DNA of 64,000 bases from Synechococcus sp. CC9605 (GTDB lineage: Bacteria; Cyanobacteriota; Cyanobacteriia; PCC-6307; Cyanobiaceae). The notes beneath the pieces were generated by a model. The model was not told the DNA's origin. It saw nothing but the letters and a program-made list of their open reading frames with translations, and made no database searches. The stretch spans positions 310,001-374,000 of the forward strand of contig NC_007516.1 in the NCBI RefSeq assembly GCF_000012625.1, in the 5' to 3' direction. Position numbers and translations under genes: made by a program. Below, one piece after another: positions 44,894 to 49,478 of the stretch (the first letter of the stretch is position 1; each line of letters begins with the position of its first letter).

Positions 44894-44909
44894 GTCAATG
44901 AACTTGGAA

Positions 44910-44998
44910 CGGAGAGGGAGGGATTCGAACCCTCGACAGAAGTTGCCTCCTGTAACTCCTTAGCAGGGAGCCGCTTTCAACCACTCAGCCACCTCTCC
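44910..44998 (-). tRNA. tRNA-Ser (anticodon GCU)
   Basis: On the minus strand the acceptor GGAGAGG pairs with CCTCTCC. The anticodon loop CTGCTAA gives GCT. A long variable arm typical of class II tRNAs follows, then the T arm with GGTTCGAATCC. The discriminator is G at 44910 and CCA is not encoded. It borders the AT-rich island on the right. Confidence 0.95.
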
Positions 44999-45476
44999 AG
45001 GGGCTTTTCAATACTACCAAGCCAAGGACCAGAAAACGAAATGTAACTCTGAGTTAAAGATGTGTTCAGAAATCTTTTTACTAGAGCTTTATTTTGCCTC
45101 GACATGATTATTTTGTTCATTGTTTTATATAAGTTATCCGAGGCTAGTGCATTACATTCAATAAAAAACGTAAATCGCACAATTGATGAAATGATTACTT
45201 AACACAAAGTGTGCCTCTTGCGCCAATTAAGCACTGATTTCAAGTGCACTTAGAGGTATGAATGAGAAGGTCAGAATCGTTTAGATTGGTATTTATGTCT
45301 AAGTTTTCAGTCGCGTGTGGGTCTAAGTTTTGTGCGTAAACATAATTAAGATGTAGTTATTTTAGACGAAAGACTATTGTGGAATTTTAAGATTCCTCTA
45401 TTAAGAGTGATTGCATTACCTCGAAATAATTTGGTATTTTATCTTGACAGATGAATTAATTCTATGGAATCTCTTA
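44999..45476. other. Non-coding AT-rich spacer between tRNA-Ser and the fusion gene
   Basis: No convincing gene is seen in these 478 bp. The one feature noted is an 11-nt direct repeat GTCTAAGTTTT at 45297-45307 and 45321-45331, 24 bp apart. The rest is low-complexity AT-rich sequence. Confidence 0.6.
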
Positions 45477-47396
45477 TTAAATGGATTGATCAACTCTAAT
45501 AATTACGTTTTCTAATCCGGAGTCTCTTTGAAGATTGATGGCATGTGCTGTTTTTAACCCGCTAGGTTTATCGTCATTAAAAAGCAATCTTTCGCCAAAT
45601 GGCAACGAAGAAATTACTCTGACATCACAATTGCAAATTTGTTTAACTTTTTCAAGAATTAAGGATGATTCCTCTTTAGTTCTACTGGTTGTTAGAAGGA
45701 TTACATCATCTTTCTCAATATTCTCGGCAAGAAAAGACTCAACACCTACAAGAAAATCCTCATTTTCGTTTGAGATGTGACCGTTGTGTAATACAAGTGT
45801 TCCATCAATGTCAAATATCCAAGTCTTTGGTAAGTTTGACAATTTAATACTTCTTTCGGTGGACTCTAATAAACTTTTATACTGATTATAAACCATGATT
45901 CCTTTAAGAAAGGCACCCACGATGGAATTGATGTGGTCTTTTACGTATCCACACAAACTAAACCAAATCAAAGAATGAATGAGTACGAGTCTTTCTGGTC
46001 TCTCGACTTGTCCGTAAATTATATGTGAATGCTGTTTAAATTTAGACTGAGGCAGAGTCAAATAAAATTCTTTGCCCGAGTAAGAAATAAGTTCGAAATC
46101 TTTTTTATTAAAGTGATCATAAGATCCCTCGGCGGAATATAGAAGTTTTGCTATATCGTAGTACCTATCACCAAATATTTGACTATTACCGAAAACACCT
46201 CTAGGGTCAATAAAATATGCTTTATTATTACGGCTAGAATAAATAATATTCGAAAATGTTGGATCTCCGTGAATTGGGACAAAATCATCCTGAGTACTTA
46301 AAAGGTACTCTTTTATGAGATCAAACTCGTAAGCGATACAACTTTCGTGAAACGGATTCTCGTAAGTGATGTCATTAATGATTATATTTTTCTCTTTTAT
46401 TGGGAGCAAAGAAGAAACTTTTTTCACTCTTTCAAGAGTCTTCTGAATGTATACAGATGATGTATCATTAGAATCTGCTGGTCTCTTTTCTAATTTGTGT
46501 AGGGTAGATAGTGATTGAAGGCATGAGCTGAGGATTTTTTCATTACTTTCTAGATCGTCAGGATGATCGCCAATTATTCTCTCCATAGTAAGTGGGGAAT
46601 CACTAAATATTCCGGGTGAGTATTTAAAGCCTTGATCAGAAACATAATTATACCAATTTATTTCGTTGTCAATTAACTTTTCAAAGTCACTATCAATACA
46701 TTCCTTGATTACGTGATTATCTTCAAAGATTACGTTGTTAAAAAATCTGCAACGGGATTGTTTGGTTGTCTTCAAAGCCTCATATTGTTTGATATCACCT
46801 AGTTCTAAAGTGTTTTTAATGTATTGTCCGCTAAATTTAAAGTCATTTTTAAGCGATAACCATCTGACAAATTCGCCAGAAGGAGGCAGATTTTCTAGAA
46901 TTTTTATCGGTTCTTTAAAGAAGAAAACTCCAGCCACACCAGAAGTCGATGATGATTTTTCCAATAACTTGCCTTCTTCATTTAGTGACCACCTGCAAGT
47001 AAATTCGCTTGAGAGTCCGATAATATTTTCACCATTCGTGATATCGAAGTTGTCAAAACTCGATTCATCAAAATATAAATCACACCACACAATTAATAGA
47101 GGTTCATTGTTTAAAGTAGAAAGCGCATCATTGATACCCGAACATGTTCCAATGCCCTTGGGCGTAATAAGTTGCGGTGAAAGATGATGAGGATATGATT
47201 CAAAGTAGTTTGAAACAACTTCGCTTTTGTAATCACAAACTACATAGAAATTGCTCCCAGGGAAAGATTTATCTAAGGCGTTTATTGTGTGGTAAAGTAA
47301 AATGTTTTCATTTACTGAAATGAGACATTTTGGAATGTTAGTTGTGTATTTCTGGAGACGCCTGCCCTGGCCGCCGGCTTGGATTATTATATTCAA
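45477..47396 (-). CDS. Three-domain fusion: sugar-type nucleotidyltransferase, APH/choline-kinase-like kinase, HAD phosphatase
   Basis: This 639-residue protein joins three enzymes. Residues 1-~215 are a nucleotidyltransferase with the GGxGRR loop at 8-13, IPK at 21-23 and metal Asp106 (WCDLYFD). Residues ~216-515 are a kinase of the APH/choline-kinase fold with HGDPTFSN at 376-383 and IDPRG at 396-400, then FGDRYYDIAKL. Residues ~523-639 are a HAD phosphatase with DIDGT at 529-533, LLTTSR and FNDDKPSG. Together they could phosphorylate, dephosphorylate and nucleotide-activate a small glycan substituent. The substrate is unknown. The start is a TTG at 47396, right before the nucleotide-binding loop, with an in-frame stop close upstream. 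Confidence 0.8.
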   Translation of the reverse strand: MNIIIQAGGQGRRLQKYTTNIPKCLISVNENILLYHTINALDKSFPGSNFYVVCDYKSEVVSNYFESYPHHLSPQLITPKGIGTCSGINDALSTLNNEPLLIVWCDLYFDESSFDNFDITNGENIIGLSSEFTCRWSLNEEGKLLEKSSSTSGVAGVFFFKEPIKILENLPPSGEFVRWLSLKNDFKFSGQYIKNTLELGDIKQYEALKTTKQSRCRFFNNVIFEDNHVIKECIDSDFEKLIDNEINWYNYVSDQGFKYSPGIFSDSPLTMERIIGDHPDDLESNEKILSSCLQSLSTLHKLEKRPADSNDTSSVYIQKTLERVKKVSSLLPIKEKNIIINDITYENPFHESCIAYEFDLIKEYLLSTQDDFVPIHGDPTFSNIIYSSRNNKAYFIDPRGVFGNSQIFGDRYYDIAKLLYSAEGSYDHFNKKDFELISYSGKEFYLTLPQSKFKQHSHIIYGQVERPERLVLIHSLIWFSLCGYVKDHINSIVGAFLKGIMVYNQYKSLLESTERSIKLSNLPKTWIFDIDGTLVLHNGHISNENEDFLVGVESFLAENIEKDDVILLTTSRTKEESSLILEKVKQICNCDVRVISSLPFGERLLFNDDKPSGLKTAHAINLQRDSGLENVIIRVDQSI

Positions 47397-47497: not shown

Positions 47498-48097
47498 TTA
47501 CCCTATATCCCAGAAGAGATTATTCGACAAAGCTATCATTTTATTTCGGGCTATATTTTTTTCTGCAAAGTAAATAATATATTTGCGTAACTCTTCGTCT
47601 GGAAGTGACTCCGGACCTCTCAGATACAACACGTCTTGAGCTAGCCATAATAATAAATTTGTTGCAGCCAATCTCATTACGGCTTCGCTAAAAGACCGTG
47701 GCATGTAAGTATCTTGCATTATTGTCATTTTATTGAAAGTGCTGGAGGTACCAGCTTTGGCCACTGTGAGAGCCCTTTCAATGTCGATTATTTGATTGTC
47801 GCTTAATCCCTCAGATGTCAGTATATTTTCGCTATTCATATATAGCCTGATGCATAAGATGGACAGCCTGTCAGCGAGCATGCCGATGGTGTTCAGTCCG
47901 ATATGGTCGACTTCTTGAGTACTTGATAGGCTTGAATAATCAATAAAATCTTTTTTTAGGTCTGTATTTTGTTGGGTAAAAATATTCAATATTTCGTTTT
48001 CCATAGCTCGAATTGAGTCTATATTCATTGGTTCTTTGCAAGGGCTCAACTCATTAATGCAATTTGCATATGCCAGCGTAAGAGGGTGACGTTTCAT
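47498..48097 (-). CDS. Island protein of unknown function
   Basis: I do not recognise this 199-residue, largely helical protein. The segment TIGMLADRLSILCIRLYM near the middle recalls a DRLSI-type helix seen in some uncharacterised proteins beside glycosyltransferases, but I cannot name a family. The C-terminal third is helical with AATNLLLWLAQDVLYLRG. There is no signal peptide or clear membrane segment. I use the ATG at 48097. An in-frame TTG at 48118 is possible. It lies between the GT61 gene and the fusion gene, all on one strand. Confidence 0.6.
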   Translation of the reverse strand: MKRHPLTLAYANCINELSPCKEPMNIDSIRAMENEILNIFTQQNTDLKKDFIDYSSLSSTQEVDHIGLNTIGMLADRLSILCIRLYMNSENILTSEGLSDNQIIDIERALTVAKAGTSSTFNKMTIMQDTYMPRSFSEAVMRLAATNLLLWLAQDVLYLRGPESLPDEELRKYIIYFAEKNIARNKMIALSNNLFWDIG

Positions 48098-48255
48098 ATC
48101 TTGATGAAATTTGTCCAATTGTACAGGAAACCATGTTTGTCGCTATGCATAGGGGGACAAAGGTTTATTATTCACGCAAAGACCACATAGTAGCTAAGGT
48201 TTATTTACAAAGGAAGTTGATGCTTTTTAAGTAATCGCATAAGCATTTTGCGAAT

Positions 48256-49389
48256 TTATTTTGTTGTGGGGGGGCTTAAATTGCCAAGCATTCTGTCTAC
48301 GCATGCAGTTACGTTTTCAATGGGAACATGAAAATTCCATTTTGAATACTTTGTGCCTTCTTCTTTGATCACATCGCAGTTAATTCTCCAGTAATCTTGA
48401 CCGCATCCTGCGACGACTGTACTGACGCAATTCATGTTCGATGGGTCACATTTATAGAAATCTGGAACGAATTCTCCGACCTGGGCGTGGGCAGGAGCAA
48501 AAATGCAATTGAACATATTTGAACCTAGAGCGCTTATGATTATTTCGGCACTGCCGAGAATGTTGCGTAGTTCTGAAAAAGAATATTTCGAGGCCTCAAT
48601 TGTCTGGAAAGAATATTTCTCAAGTGCTTTTATGATTTCCTTCTCGTTTAAAACCTTCCTGTATGATGCATCTCCTCTGGCAATATAAATTCTTTGACGC
48701 TCGCTGGATATTTCGGGCAAACCTTGTGGAATATTTGCAATTTCTCTGAAGCGTGTTAAGAAATCTGTGGAGGTGTGATGAGTGCCTTTGCCATACGACA
48801 CAGGCATGATTGGGCACCATAAATTTTTGAACTTTAGGCGATCTCTTTTGTTTAAAGCTCTTATTTGATTTGTTTTTATGCCGGCTGTGTCAAGTATTTC
48901 ACTGATAAACTTTTTTGAAGCTGGTGAGATAAAGTAAAATGGTATGTCTTTTGTTGGACAGTCTATTAATGCATTCACGATGCCTACCGTATAAACAATC
49001 ATATGTCCAAAATACTTTGATCCAAAGCAAGCGATGATTCCATCTTCAATTTCTACTTCGGGGGTATTTATTGTAATTTTTTCATTTGCTTCCTTTTGTT
49101 CTTTTATAAACCTTGGTCCCTTGATTTGACCATCTGATAGAAGGCCGGGGTAAACTAAATCGTTGTTCTCGGTTAGTATTAGCCCTGTTGTTCCATCAAC
49201 TACTGCGTTTTTAACTCTGGCGAGGCCATAAGGCATTTCGTTAACATTTAAGATTCCTTGGGTGACTTCAGTACCACTTACAATCGTTTGAAAATTAGTT
49301 TTTAATTCAGGAGAATCTGGATGTTTATCATTCGTAGTGAAGATTGCATGATTTTTGATGGCCCATTCCATCAAATTTGAATATTTCAT
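48256..49389 (-). CDS. Glycosyltransferase family 61 (DUF563) protein
   Basis: This 377-residue protein matches the GT61 pattern. A variable N-terminal half contains CFGSKYFGHMIVYTVG. A C-terminal catalytic half begins QRIYIARGDASYRKVLNE and continues with FSELRNILGSAEIIISALGSNMFNCIFAPAH, the usual region with a conserved G-x-x-G and N. In bacteria such proteins are found in surface-polysaccharide clusters. The ATG at 49389 is chosen. A TTG at 49398 and an ATG at 49371 are also in frame. No ribosome binding site is clear. Confidence 0.78.
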   Translation of the reverse strand: MKYSNLMEWAIKNHAIFTTNDKHPDSPELKTNFQTIVSGTEVTQGILNVNEMPYGLARVKNAVVDGTTGLILTENNDLVYPGLLSDGQIKGPRFIKEQKEANEKITINTPEVEIEDGIIACFGSKYFGHMIVYTVGIVNALIDCPTKDIPFYFISPASKKFISEILDTAGIKTNQIRALNKRDRLKFKNLWCPIMPVSYGKGTHHTSTDFLTRFREIANIPQGLPEISSERQRIYIARGDASYRKVLNEKEIIKALEKYSFQTIEASKYSFSELRNILGSAEIIISALGSNMFNCIFAPAHAQVGEFVPDFYKCDPSNMNCVSTVVAGCGQDYWRINCDVIKEEGTKYSKWNFHVPIENVTACVDRMLGNLSPPTTK

Positions 49390-49478
49390 CAAATTCAAAG
49401 TGCGATATAAATCAATCTAGCATATCATTTACATGCCAACTCTTTGGAGTGGTTGATCTTGATCTAACGCAAGCGTTT

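Follow-up and report, generated by a model that had tools for sequence, protein, structure and literature searches.

An NTP transferase–kinase–HAD fusion in an AT-rich island of Synechococcus sp. CC9605 is a candidate trifunctional NDP-D-arabinose synthase

What would a bacterium activate with a nucleotidyltransferase, a kinase, and a phosphatase joined in one polypeptide? The question is raised by an AT-rich island of Synechococcus sp. CC9605, which lies in the 64,000-nucleotide stretch of DNA analyzed here (the window, in whose numbering positions are given) and encodes a 639-residue single chain on the minus strand, at 45477–47396, from a TTG start codon. The gene is the sole match of its kind in its own 2.51-Mb single-contig genome. 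A preliminary description, made from the sequence alone, had listed this open reading frame together with a set of active-site motifs, and the sequence bears out both: G8-G9-x-G11-R12-R13 and D106 fall in domain 1, a nucleotidyltransferase (NTP_transf_3) spanning residues about 1–211 (46764–47396, minus strand); H376-G-D-P-T-F-S-N383 and I396-D-P-R-G400 fall in domain 2, an APH-fold kinase of residues about 212–512 (45861–46763, minus strand); and D529-I-D-G-T533 falls in domain 3, a small HAD domain of residues about 517–639 (45477–45848, minus strand).

Structure prediction and domain searches on each third of the protein uphold the assignment of a nucleotidyltransferase, an APH-fold kinase, and a HAD-type domain, the last two through their relatives. 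NTP_transf_3 (Pfam) scored 38.7 bits, above its cut-off of 27. For the fused sequence alone, APH (18.5 bits, cut-off 23.2) and Hydrolase_3 (16.5 bits, cut-off 20.9) fell below their Pfam cut-offs, and these two assignments thus rest on relatives and motifs: APH was matched in 11 of the 12 members of a kinase-domain alignment, and a 40-row HAD alignment gave matches to Acid_phosphat_B in 22 rows and to HAD_PNKP in eight. Domains 1 and 2 align lengthwise with 96 other full-length proteins. Every position that is identical in all 49 NTP-transferase/kinase relatives compared is retained in the fused protein, including G9, G11, R13, K23, D106, K231, E245, H376, D378, N383, and D397, as is every position identical in all 39 HAD relatives, D529, D531, R572, N607, D608, and K610 among them; the claim of three successive domains with intact motifs thus stands. 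Seven highly conserved, noninvariant positions are altered (32, 53, 61, 419, 488, 584, and 604). The family profile phrog_4098 matches residues 3–504 with an E value of 7.3e-57. With both domains matched and the conserved residues kept, the protein belongs to the NTP-transferase/APH-kinase fusion family (phrog_4098; RB69 ORF053_052c-like).

The predicted structure has a pLDDT of about 95 in the NTP-transferase domain and about 96 in the kinase domain. In structure comparisons (VIA) the NTP-transferase domain resembled LicC (Z 21.5), MurU (Z 20.8), and HddC (Z 20.7), among many tied rows, and a profile search of the PDB gave HddC as its best match (5.8e-20); the same search with the kinase domain returned nothing below E 0.08. 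The preliminary description had suggested an amino alcohol or polyol among the possible substrates. In a LicA/LicC-like route to an activated compound such as choline, the HAD domain would have a side job, and we consider such a route highly improbable: LicC is the top structural match, tied with many, LicC–LicA fusions are known, and the kinase domain has a weak match to Choline_kinase (E 0.0087, 15.8 bits against a cut-off of 29), but the route needs no phosphatase, and it leaves unexplained both the isomerase neighbors and the phage arabinose described below.

Relatives were collected by tBLASTn and by profile scans of genomes, of the class, and of viral sequences. A search of 98 genomes, among them its own, gave matches at 1e-5 in 27, with both domains matched in its own genome and in G045 alone; a profile run over 388 genomes of the class, again including its own, found four, one of them partial. 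Tblastn returned 12 plasmid records, one of which (Planktothrix, 39% identity) covers most of the query, and 375 phage records with some match, 81 of them with a query coverage of 80% or more. In most of the phage records listed, family members are labeled hypothetical. The viral scan found no relative when the single fused protein served as query; an alignment query did find relatives. The loci kept (80 of 106 from the genome scan and 80 of 204 from the viral scan) include cyanobacteria, proteobacteria, Bacillota, and archaea. The 117 rows reduced to 102 distinct proteins at 150 bits or more, and omission of five under 480 aa left 97 full-length proteins; RB69 is outside this set, as its record gives the fusion in split form.

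The preliminary description had further supposed that in heptose- or choline-type pathways the three activities are usually encoded by separate genes. In the present family this holds for the HAD domain: the window protein alone among the 97 carries it in the same chain, and the order NTP transferase–kinase–HAD, sought elsewhere as had been proposed, occurs only here. Of the other 96 full-length homologs, 87 have a separate HAD gene at another place in their locus; none was detected in the remaining nine loci, some of which are near contig ends. It does not hold for the NTP transferase and the kinase. Judged by sequence comparison, their fusion is the rule in the family, and the added HAD domain is the sole oddity of the window protein. 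In three loci (L055, L118, and L132) the HAD domain sits in a longer ORF of its own; in the viral contigs L118 (7757–8686) and L132 (7482–8948) these ORFs are 310 aa and 489 aa long, and at a limit of 0.001 the former had no Pfam match. The tree gives the window protein a long branch (1.35 changes per column) and does not place it, leaving a phage origin neither supported nor excluded.

Could the fusion itself be a sequencing or assembly error that joined two ordinary genes, one for the NTP transferase/kinase and one for the HAD protein? In 63 relatives a HAD ORF of the window type begins no more than 60 bases from the fusion's end, and in 61 of these (all except L162 and L187) it lies in another frame, so that gain or loss of a single base could join the genes. 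No second source of the fused gene was found. In addition, at the kinase–HAD junction (45834–45857, minus strand) the purine-rich stretch GAAAGAAG is followed 7 nt later by a TTG in the same reading frame (codon 519), at which translation of the HAD domain alone could restart. Against an error stand the single-contig genome, a junction in which no homopolymer exceeds four bases, and the retention of conserved residues in both halves, and we regard it as unlikely. A single indel could have created the fusion, either in nature or in the record.

The substrate is best approached through the genes that accompany the family. An SIS isomerase gene was found in 48 of the 97 loci with a full-length homolog and was not detected in the other 49, some of which end at contig borders; in the Prochlorococcus and cyanophage S-SRM01 loci there is a four-base overlap between it and the start of the fusion. 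The isomerases that were tested, 15 from the 48 loci together with that of RB69, all matched KdsD/KpsF/GutQ best (16 of 16), with GmhA weak or beyond the limits used, although this count is a biased draw, since the search profile derives from KpsF-type proteins and could miss other types. Three of the 16 pass the kpsF cut-off, and the others are short SIS-only proteins. As a control, among the genome loci an isomerase accompanied 14 of 23 close homologs and none of 57 loci with only distant kinase relatives (P = 5e-10, an optimistic value because near-duplicate rows are included). HAD genes lie near 44 of these 57 distant relatives, all without an isomerase, and thus the combination of kinase and HAD alone does not mean arabinose. 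In an E. coli and a Legionella plasmid (L030 and L031), kinase-like and small HAD genes adjoin near polysaccharide genes, with no isomerase among the annotations, and the substrate of these pairs may differ. In a genome of the same family (G279) an isomerase ORF (L115, 122–1486) that also has a DUF6165 domain and CBS repeats adjoins NTP-transferase/kinase and HAD genes.

These isomerases bear on the possibility that the substrate is a heptose. D-glycero-D-manno-heptose activation uses an isomerase, a C1 kinase, a HAD bisphosphate phosphatase, and a nucleotidyltransferase (GmhA, HddA, GmhB, and HddC), so that heptose 7-phosphate would gain a phosphate at C1 and lose the one at C7 before being joined to GTP or ATP. 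These reactions follow the same logic as those proposed here, the NTP-transferase domain has HddC as its best sequence match in the PDB, and GmhB is among the weak HAD matches, both by fold (Z 6.1–6.2) and by profile (E 0.4–0.5). However, all 16 tested neighbor isomerases, found with the KpsF-type profile, are KpsF/KdsD-like and not GmhA-like, the kinase is APH-fold whereas HddA is of the GHMP type, the heptose genes are separate, and the phage relatives go with DNA arabinose and an arabinose 1,5-diphosphate phosphatase. A heptose is thus quite improbable.

An isomerase of the same type appears to be available to the window protein from outside the island. Within the island, none was found: no SIS family was detected by Pfam in the four ORFs scanned, and the isomerase profile had no match in the corresponding loci (L001 and L113). 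The genome encodes a KdsD-type isomerase at G000:C1:189925–190749 (TIGR00393, 257 bits, above cut-off), beside a HAD gene that we read as KdsC, and arabinose 5-phosphate can thus be made without an island isomerase. The regions G000:C1:134911–138070 and 180522–190749 (L197–L205) hold kdsA and kdsB, each twice above cut-off, and near 134911 there is a short partial KpsF match with an internal TGA.

The identity of the sugar is suggested by the phage relatives. RB69 DNA contains arabinose, and ORF055c and ORF053_052c have been put forward as candidates for making the donor, their biochemistry being described as unclear (PMC6024577). In RB69 the isomerase (ORF055c), the NTP transferase/kinase (ORF053_052c), and the HAD gene (ORF051c) lie close together, and the product of the last, described elsewhere as having a phosphatase domain of polynucleotide kinase (RB69p051; PMC8056088), is nearly identical over its whole length (E 9.4e-87) to PDB entry 9iqw, whose title reads as phage HY126 encoded D-arabinose 1,5-diphosphate phosphatase AfhF. 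This title, the only part of the entry used, names the very intermediate that the gene order predicts. A further report places the sugar directly on 5-hydroxycytosine, predicts an isomerase, an epimerase, a kinase, and an NTP transferase, and calls the full pathway uncharacterized (PMC13390438). The KpsF/KdsD-type neighbors, the arabinose of RB69 DNA, and the match of the RB69 HAD protein to 9iqw together underlie the arabinose reading. Thus, of the proposal that the locus serves an activation pathway for a small glycan substituent, the pathway fits, and the relatives do not point to an amino alcohol or polyol.

A different pentose or deoxypentose 5-phosphate (ribose, xylose, or a deoxypentose) might instead be the substrate of the C1 kinase and nucleotidyltransferase. 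A relative of the RB69 fusion in phage Thanatos, 53.2% identical to it, goes with a deoxypentose of unknown configuration in the phage DNA, another Thanatos protein makes UDP-xylose, and an in vitro function for the relative was not found (PMC12838424). Nevertheless, the isomerases examined resemble the arabinose-5-phosphate type most closely and RB69 DNA carries arabinose, which makes another pentose rather unlikely. In keeping with the arabinose reading, among four annotated T4-type loci the isomerase is present in L023, L025, and L032 and went undetected in the fetched stretch of Thanatos-2 (L026), the one phage of the deoxypentose type.

How closely the HAD domain of the window is related to AfhF is a separate matter. 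The full-length model gave a poor HAD domain, with HAD-only rows misaligned (32–45 of 102–126 aligned residues at the C terminus), and the domain was refolded alone for structure comparison. With the refolded model, VIA gave Z 5.7–7.0 to many HAD enzymes; 9iqw ranked 26 among tied rows (Z 6.2, rmsd 3.6, 98 aligned residues, 12% identity), a level of Z that, according to the tool, possibly reflects just a common arrangement. Foldseek with this model found no match at E 0.001 or better. A profile of the HAD group of the window matched Pnkp1 best in the PDB (8.1e-7), and 9iqw was absent from its matches up to E 1. A profile comparison of the window HAD with the phage HAD group by hhalign yielded a probability of 90.5% and an E value of 1.3e-6, and the domain is 16–19% identical to the HAD proteins of T4-type phages and of an Enterococcus phage. 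By these sequence comparisons, the link between the window HAD and the AfhF group is a distant one.

Collectively, we consider it likely, from the sequence and by analogy with the phage module, that the fused protein is a trifunctional NDP-D-arabinose synthase fed by the KdsD of the cell. The domains, the retained motifs, the gene neighborhoods, and the presence of a KdsD-type gene are directly observed; the substrate, the product, the order of steps, the nucleotide, and the acceptor are those we infer. Specifically, the KdsD-type isomerase encoded elsewhere in the genome would convert ribulose 5-phosphate to D-arabinose 5-phosphate, the APH-fold domain 2 would phosphorylate this at the anomeric carbon, C1, to give D-arabinose 1,5-bisphosphate, the HAD domain 3 would remove the 5-phosphate to leave D-arabinose 1-phosphate, and the N-terminal domain 1 would join this to a nucleotide, forming NDP-D-arabinose. 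The neighboring GT61 enzyme would then probably place the arabinose on a surface glycan. Such a route copies the logic of heptose activation, and domain 1 finds its best PDB match in HddC, the nucleotidyltransferase of that pathway. More tentatively, the trifunctional enzyme might channel the unusual 1,5-bisphosphate from domain to domain as it makes NDP-D-arabinose and feed GT61 to give surface D-arabinose, as part of a module shared with cyanophages and DNA-modifying T4-type phages; this extended reading is possible. The NDP-D-arabinose proposal offers a testable function for a family that is called hypothetical in most of the phage records listed and whose range extends to bacteria and archaea, and it suggests that cells, too, obtain D-arabinose by a route that had until now been known from phage DNA modification.

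The novelty lies not in the pathway but in its single-chain form, beside a GT61 gene, in an island that 29 of 29 loci of the same genus lack. Lee (2025) and Mahler (2025) are said to treat arabinosylation and may already contain the pathway. Among the literature matches listed for HY126, AfhF, AfhC, AfhE, and 9IQW, the names were unrelated abbreviations, and the titles and opening lines of abstracts on arabinose nucleotide precursors gave no such route for bacteria.

The window protein shares features with several known systems. Like the phage module, it has an NTP-transferase/kinase fusion, 24–25% identical to those of L023, L025, L026, and L032 (that of RB69 being outside the alignment), and the small HAD gene beside the phage fusion has the same proposed chemistry. 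Unlike the phage module, its HAD domain is fused in and distant in sequence, its island has no isomerase, and no DNA-modification genes were recognized nearby. Distant homologs in Enterococcus phage Planchet (L027) and Tenacibaculum phage PTm1 (L028) lie near genes annotated as thymidylate synthase or pyrimidine hydroxymethylase, neighborhoods that may mean that phages other than those of the T4 group also have sugar-modified DNA. A split module is found in cyanobacteria and cyanophage S-SRM01, where the first two domains are 38% (Prochlorococcus, L002), 39% (Planktothrix, L022), and 34% (L021) identical to those of the window; it also occurs in Trichodesmium (L034 and L036), Elainella (L035), and Prochloron (L033 and L049). 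All of these encode the HAD protein separately, and an isomerase gene is present in all but the Planktothrix locus, where none was found beside the pair; the Prochlorococcus genome thus carries the split version plus its own isomerase. In AmgK/MurU recycling, an APH-fold C1 sugar kinase is likewise followed by a nucleotidyltransferase (MurU, Z 20.8 to the NTP-transferase domain), but the substrate is a free sugar, there is no phosphatase, and the genes are separate. Finally, the arabinokinase/pyrophosphorylase of Leishmania makes GDP-D-arabinose via arabinose 1-phosphate in one enzyme, with no phosphatase step named in the part of the report consulted (PMC3347535).

The island, with approximate borders at 45022 and 49688, is inserted between tRNA-Ser(GCT) (44909–44999, minus strand), which forms one border, and alr, and its GC content in 2-kb windows is 0.34–0.42 at the core against about 0.62 around it, confirming the AT-rich character noted earlier. 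The alr gene was located in 31 of the 34 genomes searched within the genus, its own included, and 29 of the 30 others gave a locus (L207–L235); in all 29 of these loci scanned tRNA-Ser adjoins the end of alr and the island is missing. The flanks in L207 can be aligned to the window as far as about 45021 and again from about 49689. The island is thus an insertion, and the relatives have an empty site in its place. A Pfam scan of four island ORFs revealed no integrase family, and no repeat of at least 16 nt links one end of the island with the other.

The fused gene is the last of three sizeable same-strand genes of the island, after one for a GT61-family glycosyltransferase (48256–49398, minus strand; Pfam Glyco_transf_61, 69.8 bits) and one for a 206-aa protein (47498–48118, minus strand) with weak Pfam similarity to DUF4254, below cut-off. 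The 206-aa protein, for which a PDB profile search gave nothing up to E 1, is 33–35% identical to the products of genes that stand second after the HAD gene in the Planktothrix, Elainella, and two Trichodesmium loci (L022, L035, L034, and L036), all of the split type. GT61 homologs occur in three cyanobacterial loci (L022, L035, and L036); neither a relative of the 206-aa gene nor a GT61 homolog was found in the Prochloron loci (L033 and L049). The shared 206-aa and GT61 relatives support a common cellular function apart from DNA modification, and the GT61 enzyme is a candidate user of the activated sugar. In the Planktothrix plasmid (AP017992, L022) the split homolog lies among genes annotated as glycine amidinotransferase, taurine dioxygenase, sulfotransferase, and carbamoyltransferase, surroundings that may be a natural-product cluster. 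In one genome of the genus (G009, L218), a 1.5-kb stretch that follows alr and contains tRNA-Ser has a low GC content of 0.41–0.48, possibly marking another island at the same site.
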